Origin: an uncultured Pelagibacteraceae bacterium | GTDB lineage: Bacteria > Pseudomonadota > Alphaproteobacteria > Pelagibacterales > Pelagibacteraceae | Direction of reading: 5' to 3' | Length of the DNA stretch: 45,440 nt | Assembly (NCBI GenBank): GCA_902515175.1 | Contig: CABXTP010000003.1 | Coordinates: 1-45,440, forward strand | Part shown: positions 43,500-45,440 of the stretch, piece after piece | How positions within the stretch are numbered: position 1 is the first letter of the stretch | Layout: each line of letters starts with the position of its first letter | The notes under the pieces: model-generated | The model's input: only the letters and a program-made list of their open reading frames with translations | Databases searched by the model: none | What the model was told of the DNA's origin: nothing | Position numbers and translations under genes: made by a program

Positions 43500-43715
43500 T
43501 TGTCAAAACAAGACTTATTGGAGTTTAAAGGCGTAGTGATTGACTTGCTCCCGAACGCAATGTTTAGAGTAAAATTGGAAAATGGACATACAGTTACCGC
43601 ACATACTGCTGGTAAGTTGAGAAAAAATAGAATTAGAGTTCTTCAAGGTGACAATGTCACTGTAGAGATGACACCTTACGATCTTACTAAAGGTAGAATA
43701 ATCTTTAGAGGATAA
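43500..43715 (+). CDS. infA: Translation initiation factor IF-1 (TTG start)
   Basis: [63 protein letters not shown]. Confidence 0.97.
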
Positions 43716-43874: not shown

Positions 43875-44087
43875 ATGAGTACACTTAAAGGACAAGTTAA
43901 ATGGTTTAATTTTCGTAAAGGCTTCGGTTTTATTGAGCGAGAAGATAAAGAAAAAGATGCGTTTGTACATATTACAGCAGTTAAAGCTGCCGGTATCAAA
44001 ACTCTTGAAGAAAACGACAAATTAGAGTTTACTTTAGAAGATGGTCCAAAGGGCCCTTCTGCAGTTAATTTAAAAAAAATAGACTAA
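43875..44087 (+). CDS. Cold-shock domain protein
   Basis: MSTLKGQVKWFNFRKGFGFIEREDKEKDAFVHITAVK with RNP1/RNP2-like motifs. Confidence 0.96.
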   Translation: MSTLKGQVKWFNFRKGFGFIEREDKEKDAFVHITAVKAAGIKTLEENDKLEFTLEDGPKGPSAVNLKKID

Positions 44088-44101: not shown

Positions 44102-44147
44102 AAAGGGCGTTTTATCTAAGTAGTAGATAAACGTCCTTTTTTGTTTT
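44102..44147 (+). terminator. Rho-independent terminator of the cold-shock gene
   Basis: AAAGGGCGTTTTATCTA-AGTAG-TAGATAAACGTCCTTT stem-loop followed by TTTTGTTTT. Confidence 0.8.
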
Positions 44148-44198: not shown

Positions 44199-44322
44199 TA
44201 TTACATACAAGAATACTTTAAGAAGCACACACAGAAACTGTTTTCATAGCCAGTAGGCTAGGCTATTTATTTATATTATAATTTTAAATCCACATAAAAT
44301 AAGATAAAAACGAAGAGGATAA

Positions 44323-44397
44323 GCCCGGGTGGTGTAATGGTTAGCACGGAAGTTTGTGGAACTTTAAGTTTGAGTTCGACTCTCAGCCCGGGTACCA
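44323..44397 (+). tRNA. tRNA-His (GTG), CCA encoded, no encoded G-1
   Basis: Acceptor GCCCGGG/CCCGGGT with discriminator A and CCA; anticodon loop TTGTGGA; preceding base is A. Confidence 0.94.
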
Positions 44398-44401
44398 AAA
44401 A

Positions 44402-45440
44402 ATGAATAAAGAAAAAAAATTAATTCCTGGATTACCTTCAGGATTTGAAGATCGTTGGGATAAAAAACTTCTTCTCAAAAAAAAGCTTTTAAAAGCTATT
44501 GAGAATAATTTTGTTAAATTTGGAGCAGAGGCTCTGGAGACCCCATCGTTTGAAATAAGTGAAAATATAGGATCTTTTTTGGCAGAAGATGATGCTAATC
44601 CTATGTCTGATGTATTCTCATTTCAGGATGGAGAAAAAAGCATTACTCTTAGGTATGATCTTTCAAGCCCGCTAGCTAGATTTGTTGCTCAAAATAATCA
44701 AGAGCTTCCATCAATCTTTAAAAGGTATGCTATTCAAAATGTTTTTAGAAACGAAAAGGCTGGTAATGGAAGATACAGAGAATTTATGCAAGCAGACTTT
44801 GATATTGTTGGAAATGTTAATCCTGCCCAAGCAAATGCTGAGCTTTGCAATTTAATATCAAGTACTTTATTAGACTGCGGGCTAAAAAAAGATCAATTTA
44901 CAATTAATGTTAGCAATAGAAAAATAGTTCAAGGATTAATTAATGATTTAAATATATCAGAAGAAAAGCAGGCAAAAGTAATTAGGGCAATTGATAAATT
45001 AGATAAACCAGGTTTTGGTTTAAAAGGTGTTGAAGATCTTCTTAAAAAGGAGAGAAAAGATATAAGTGGTGCAATCACTAAGGGTGCAGATTTAAATGAT
45101 CAACAAGCTTCTGAAATAATTAATTTTCTAAAAATAAGAGATTTAAAAGAATTAAAAAAAACATTAAAAAATCCATTGTCTCAAGAAGGTATAAATGAAT
45201 TAGAACAAGTATTTGAAGTATTGGGTTACAGTTCAAATTTAAATCAGGTTAAAACAAATTTTACAATTGTAAGGGGATTGGCTTATTATTCAGATTTTAT
45301 TGTTGAAACAAATCTAAATTTTAGAGTTACAAATAATAAAGGTAAAGAGGTCGATATAGGTAGTATTTGTTCTGGAGGAGCCTATGCGAAATTAATTTCA
45401 AGATTTAAAGGTGTGGATATTCCAGGCACTGGAATTAGTT
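44402..45440 (+). CDS. hisS: Histidyl-tRNA synthetase, 3' end outside window
   Basis: MNKEKKLIPGLPSGFEDR..., motif 2 FRNEKAGNGRYREFMQADFDIVG, HisA-like RGLAYYSDFIVE; open to window end. Confidence 0.93.
   Translation, partial: MNKEKKLIPGLPSGFEDRWDKKLLLKKKLLKAIENNFVKFGAEALETPSFEISENIGSFLAEDDANPMSDVFSFQDGEKSITLRYDLSSPLARFVAQNNQELPSIFKRYAIQNVFRNEKAGNGRYREFMQADFDIVGNVNPAQANAELCNLISSTLLDCGLKKDQFTINVSNRKIVQGLINDLNISEEKQAKVIRAIDKLDKPGFGLKGVEDLLKKERKDISGAITKGADLNDQQASEIINFLKIRDLKELKKTLKNPLSQEGINELEQVFEVLGYSSNLNQVKTNFTIVRGLAYYSDFIVETNLNFRVTNNKGKEVDIGSICSGGAYAKLISRFKGVDIPGTGIS

Follow-up and report, generated by a model that had tools for sequence, protein, structure and literature searches.

A tRNA-His gene directly upstream of hisS is a conserved arrangement in the Pelagibacteraceae and probably in large part a passive product of genome compaction

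The tRNA-His/hisS junction

The window, i.e. the whole stretch of DNA analysed here (45,440 bases), is an entire contig from a 595-kb genome assembly that is 54% complete. Close to the end of the window a tRNA-His(GTG) gene is followed on the same strand by hisS, the gene for histidyl-tRNA synthetase (HisRS), and the junction reads ...CCCGGGTACCA AAAA ATG AAT AAA... (Table 1). The preliminary description had put the end of the encoded CCA at 44397 and the hisS ATG at 44402, with only AAAA between them, and this is confirmed by the sequence, ARAGORN and Rfam: the two programs agree on the placement of the tRNA, and the Rfam match to tRNA-His (59.5 bits) reaches 44394, with CCA beyond. Lying 4 nt apart on one strand, the two genes have the arrangement expected of a tRNA-mRNA dicistronic operon. 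The hisS ORF scores 85 bits against the Pfam model tRNA-synt_His, and its closest relatives belong to uncultured Pelagibacteraceae and Candidatus Pelagibacter ubique, i.e. to SAR11. The nearest solved relatives of the enzyme are eukaryotic cytosolic HisRS, the best being human cytosolic HisRS.

Table 1. Features around the tRNA-His/hisS junction in the window, and tRNA-ORF junctions in closed SAR11 relatives
Feature	Position	Strand	Gap (nt)	Basis and remarks
Cold-shock domain protein gene, upstream neighbour	43875..44087	+		Pfam CSD, 84.9 bits
Probable intrinsic terminator of the cold-shock gene	44102..44146	+		Imperfect stem AAAGGGCGTTTTATCT / AGATAAACGTCCTTT, T-rich tail; read directly
-10-like element TAAGATAAA, presumed tRNA-His/hisS promoter	44300..44308	+		AT-rich TATAAA-like block, conserved in relatives
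AGAGGA, SD-like	44314..44319	+		Directly before the tRNA-His 5′ end; motif recurs in relatives
tRNA-His(GTG)	44323..44397	+		Encoded CCA; G1:U72; discriminator A73; A at -1 (no G-1)
AAAA spacer, tRNA-His to hisS	44398..44401	+	4	Read from the sequence; 3–8 nt and A-rich in nearly all relatives
hisS (histidyl-tRNA synthetase)	44402..45440	+		ATG at 44402; Pfam PF13393; PDB relatives; gene cut by the contig end
tRNA-Gln, CCA-adding-enzyme-like gene			3	
tRNA-Leu(TAA), NAD-kinase-like gene			4–6	
tRNA-Pro, gene for a 93-aa protein			3–6	
tRNA-Leu(CAA), ORF			6	
tRNA-Leu(TAG), trigger-factor-like gene			9–10	

The ATG at 44402 is the only plausible start of hisS. The preliminary description had allowed for a different start codon, for which the sequence holds no plausible candidate: an in-frame upstream ATG is absent, and a TAG in the D-loop closes the frame. 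The sole earlier start-like codon in frame, a TTG in the anticodon loop, was rejected as the hisS start; start-like codons upstream of hisS vary in kind and position among relatives. Nor does hisS appear to have a promoter and 5′ UTR of its own, the other possibility raised at the outset, as the junction offers no room for them and a scan found neither promoter nor terminator between the two genes. A hisS promoter inside the tRNA gene is barely credible: the scan found none, the 3′ half of the tRNA gene is GC-rich and has no -10-like box, and the sequence there changes completely between lineages.

Upstream of tRNA-His, a consensus scan detected no consensus -35 and no full sigma-70 promoter. 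All but a few of the 74 leader haplotypes compared below have a TATAAA-like block ~14–23 nt before tRNA-His. The hairpin that follows the cold-shock gene, which a scan for perfect stems did not list, probably separates this gene from the tRNA-hisS unit.

A tRNA-His that carries A73 and lacks G-1, paired with a derived HisRS, is known in the RRCH alphaproteobacteria and SAR11 (PMC3937112, PMC4284800), and the HisRS of this group has been described as eukaryote-like (PMC3937112). The window shares A73, G1:U72, the absence of G-1 (base -1 is A) and a eukaryotic-cytosolic-like HisRS with this pair. The motif IIb loop of the enzyme reads EKAGNGRYREF, which would be compatible with Gly in place of Gln. 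Of the 74 leader haplotypes, 65 have T or A at position -1 and eight have G. What distinguishes the Pelagibacteraceae within the G-1-less/A73 group is the physical linkage of the tRNA to hisS, seen only there among the loci tested.

Conservation of the linkage and exchange of tRNA-His bodies

The hisS loci compared were taken from the family, from GTDB contigs, from a pattern search in 399 members of the genus, and from the order and class; some represent one genome present in two collections, and merging left 74 distinct leader/tRNA/gap haplotypes. A tRNA-His gene lies directly upstream of hisS at 161 of the 162 scored Pelagibacteraceae loci and in 11 out of 11 genera tested; at the single exception (L208) tRNA-His is present but ~48 nt from hisS, and its 3′ end is aberrant. 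Since no tRNA-His was found near hisS at any of the six loci examined in another family of the order, or at any of 20 loci from other alphaproteobacterial families, the linkage is, within the loci sampled, a Pelagibacteraceae feature. Literature on Pelagibacter and tRNAHis yielded no description of it, the published G-1-loss papers lying outside that search.

As measured, the gap between tRNA-His and hisS is 4 nt at 116 of the 161 loci, 5 nt at 29 and mostly 3–8 nt otherwise, three of the raw values being artefacts of start picking (the true gaps are 4 nt in L108, 11 nt in L026 and 27 nt in L203). About six lineages (L201, L202, L203, L204, L206 and L207) have gaps of 21–29 nt, each of which holds a hairpin of 5–8 bp, so a 4-nt gap is not obligatory. 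The conservation of spacing that the preliminary description had named as a check thus stands for most relatives, with 4–5 nt, but does not extend to the lineages with long, hairpin-bearing gaps.

Five main types of tRNA-His body occur in the genus, with at least 12 changes of type among 22 rows of the HisRS tree. Identical type-1 tRNA-His genes are found beside hisS genes only 75–86% identical (L001/L113, L001/L239), and, conversely, hisS genes ~93% identical are found beside tRNA-His genes 65–66% identical (L001/L088, L001/L098). One of these loci, L088, resembles L007 upstream (81–93%) and across the tRNA (100%), but L001 in hisS (84–94%), which marks a recombination breakpoint at the tRNA-hisS boundary. 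Recombination at the junction thus moves tRNA-His bodies from one hisS background to another, and the conserved spacing is therefore in part a result of homologous exchange at a junction that the lineages share, and not of independent selection acting again and again.

One of the bodies is unusual (L005, L007, L009, L057, L088, L098 and L206): its T-loop reads AGCGTAA or a close variant, and its D-loop has only one G. ARAGORN misses it, and Infernal scores it at 48 bits. It is apparently the only tRNA-His of the closed genome G017, since the other Infernal matches there fit tRNA-Leu(GAG) and tRNA-Thr(GGT) by length and score. Remolding of tRNA-His from another isoacceptor was considered and rejected, with no donor among the tRNAs of two closed genomes: the best identity to other tRNAs is 0.81 (tRNA-Pro) for the canonical bodies and ~0.64–0.71 for the unusual ones.

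Tight gaps and Shine-Dalgarno motifs in SAR11

Of 28 same-strand gene pairs in the window, 16 are separated by no more than 4 nt, the median gap being ~3 nt, and a median intergenic length of 3 nt has been reported for P. ubique (PMC2704228). Tight junctions behind tRNAs are common as well. In the closed relative G035, roughly nine of the 30 tRNAs (-His, -Gln, -Leu(TAA), -Leu(CAA), -Leu(TAG), -Pro, -Gly(GCC), -Trp and -Glu) are followed by an ATG-initiated ORF 2–17 nt downstream, and a doubtful 69-aa ORF follows tRNA-Leu(GAG); most of these junctions recur with similar gaps in G017 (Table 1, where product names of the tRNA-adjoining genes were read from the sequences without a database search).

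No Shine-Dalgarno (SD) motif precedes the hisS ATG. Such motifs are found before three of 37 ORFs of at least 100 aa in the window (4.5 in control windows) and before six of 91 genes in two relatives (L141–L200; two in controls), and so stand at or close to background; the counts take the furthest upstream ATG as the start, a choice that may be mistaken for some genes. This near-absence suggests that SD-independent initiation is the default in SAR11. A leaderless mRNA would likewise need no SD, in keeping with its absence at hisS. Given the gaps in the window, the other tRNA-ORF junctions and the SD counts, the 4-nt gap together with the missing SD is the lineage default and not special to tRNA-His/hisS; the geometry to which the preliminary description drew attention, and the lack of an SD, are real, but they are ordinary for a SAR11 genome rather than distinctive. 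One of the rare exceptions is infA (43500–43715 in the window): it has an apparent TTG start and, unlike most genes, a clear SD-like AAGGAG upstream.

A motif of the SD type does occur on the far side of the tRNA. AGGA, GGAG or GAGG lies no more than 14 nt upstream of tRNA-His in 43 of the 74 haplotypes and accompanies several different tRNA bodies. In two closed genomes, the only other tRNA leader with such a motif is that of tRNA-Phe, where it falls at the 3′ end of infA. The folded tRNA could conceivably bring the upstream AGGA close to the AUG, at an effective spacing of ~8–13 nt (AGGA 0–5 nt before the tRNA, plus ACCA, plus 4 nt), in which case the intact precursor would serve as the mRNA and RNase P would switch translation off. 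While both the recurrence of the motif before tRNA-His and its scarcity before other tRNAs fit such bridging, we consider it very unlikely because SAR11 genomes hardly use SD motifs and because the motif is missing from many haplotypes with gaps of 3–7 nt (L125, L135, L205, L227, L228, L236 and three other genera). The AGGA may, moreover, sit at or before the transcription start.

The less expected part of the arrangement is the pairing of a tRNA with its cognate synthetase: by our estimate, chance would place the cognate synthetase downstream at a rate of ~1 in 1,300 genes per tRNA, or ~2% over 30 tRNAs. Cognate feedback is one conceivable reading of the pairing. HisRS would bind the unprocessed tRNA-His in the leader of its own mRNA and block access of the 30S subunit to the AUG 4 nt away, thereby balancing enzyme and tRNA. 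The near-universal adjacency within the family and its absence at the tested loci outside it speak for this mechanism, as does the geometry: any synthetase or ribosome on the acceptor stem would also cover the AUG. Yet recombination re-pairs tRNA body and HisRS and nothing points to an operator that co-evolves, the equally tight tRNA-CDS junctions elsewhere in the genome are non-cognate, and RNase P should quickly remove the precursor; we therefore regard cognate feedback as unlikely.

Transcription, processing and translation of tRNA-His and hisS

With slightly better than even confidence, we favour a tRNA-hisS dicistron that has one promoter before the tRNA and an SD-independent start, the coupling of the two genes being mostly a passive outcome of compaction. 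Because a -10-like block lies upstream, a terminator-like hairpin follows the cold-shock gene and the junction holds neither promoter nor terminator, a single promoter, with its -10 ~14–23 nt before tRNA-His, would drive one dicistronic tRNA-His/hisS transcript. Genome streamlining would have stripped the intercistronic sequence down to a short A-tract, and translation of hisS, as of most SAR11 genes, would begin independently of an SD at the first AUG in a run of unpaired, A-rich sequence. In the predicted fold, the transcript is unpaired from A73 through codon 7 of hisS whether the tRNA is attached or not, so the hisS start should be accessible either way, and initiation could take place on the unprocessed or the trimmed transcript.

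How the 3′ end of the tRNA is made bears on which of these would be translated. A model for RNase E/G matches above its cut-off in all four SAR11 genomes searched (G035, G026, G017 and G009; 461–467 bits). RNase Z does not reach its curated cut-off (293 bits) in any of the four, with scores of 33–50 bits in three and no match in one. With no full RNase Z detected in these genomes, 3′ maturation of tRNA-His would most likely proceed by an RNase E-type cut followed by exonucleases. Maturation might thus yield a near-leaderless hisS mRNA or destroy the hisS start: a cut inside the AAAA spacer would do the former, and cuts at A/U-rich sites slightly further downstream would behead hisS.

In bacteria, tRNAs with an encoded CCA are commonly cut a few nucleotides past or within the CCA and then trimmed (PMC3848588, PMC4681348). 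An endonucleolytic cut of this kind at CCA/AAAA could free a 5′-(A)nAUG hisS mRNA that is the main translated species, a reading that goes back to the preliminary description and is possible but doubtful. It agrees with the short A-rich spacer of 3–8 nt in nearly all relatives and with the absence of an SD at hisS. Against it, the closest sequence resembling an RNase E site (RN^WUU) lies 17 nt inside the hisS ORF, where cleavage would behead hisS, no RNase Z-like protein scores above cut-off, relatives with 21–29 nt and a hairpin would keep a leader, and genes that follow ordinary ORFs elsewhere in the genome also lack an SD, yet cope without any tRNA processing.

The dicistron with largely passive coupling, in turn, builds on observations, namely the geometry, its conservation, the lack of an SD and the presence of RNase E; its promoter, the co-transcription, the position of the 3′ cut and the choice of translated RNA are inferred. 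The failure of the consensus scan to detect a full sigma-70 promoter counts against it. Cognate pairing and its retention in 11 of 11 genera exceed what pure compaction predicts, nor does the model account for the AGGA that 43 of 74 haplotypes carry before tRNA-His. Overall, the observation in the preliminary description is confirmed and its interpretation only partly supported: this conserved arrangement is probably a largely passive product of compaction, with some chance of control through the tRNA as a leader.

Known systems offer three comparisons. Bacteria have tRNA-mRNA dicistronic units, such as thrU-tyrU-glyT-thrT-tufB, secG-leuU and metY-nusA in E. coli; like tRNA-His/hisS they combine a same-strand tRNA and protein gene, presumably in one transcript cut at the tRNA ends, whereas here the genes are 4 nt apart, an SD is lacking and the protein is the cognate synthetase. 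In mitochondrial tRNA punctuation, mRNA ends are set by excision of the flanking tRNAs. Excision of tRNA-His would likewise give an mRNA almost without a leader, although here in a free-living bacterium and by RNase E rather than mitochondrial RNase P and ELAC2; a tRNA is present upstream of hisS, and the downstream side of the gene lies beyond the contig end. Finally, E. coli thrS carries a tRNA-like operator before its start codon, through which the synthetase represses its own translation. In both thrS and hisS a tRNA-shaped element immediately precedes the start codon of a synthetase gene, but the element before hisS is the functional tRNA itself, and repression is putative.

By extension, the tRNA-His precursor could be the regulatory leader of hisS throughout the Pelagibacteraceae: each transcript would become either tRNA substrate or HisRS mRNA, as set by HisRS binding and the access of RNase P and RNase E, giving stoichiometric control without extra sequence, and tRNAs would act as leaders also for about eight other SAR11 genes, including the CCA-adding-enzyme-like gene behind tRNA-Gln. 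We hold this to be improbable. Few cells on Earth are as abundant as those of SAR11. Should tRNA excision routinely define where their mRNAs begin, some of their gene expression would resemble mitochondrial punctuation, and tRNA and enzyme would be supplied from the same molecules. Even if it does not, the loci form a natural series (4 nt, 21–29 nt with a hairpin, several tRNA bodies) for translation after a tRNA without SD or UTR.

Two minor observations concern the members of this series and the other tRNA junctions. In G035 (L158) and G017 (L191), tRNA-Gln precedes a gene resembling CCA-adding enzyme/poly(A) polymerase (VRYVGGCVRK...DDIDLATN), another case of a tRNA adjoining a tRNA-maturation gene. 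The hairpins in the 21–29 nt spacers differ in sequence, and in three cases GGAG or AGGA lies within the loop or close to it.
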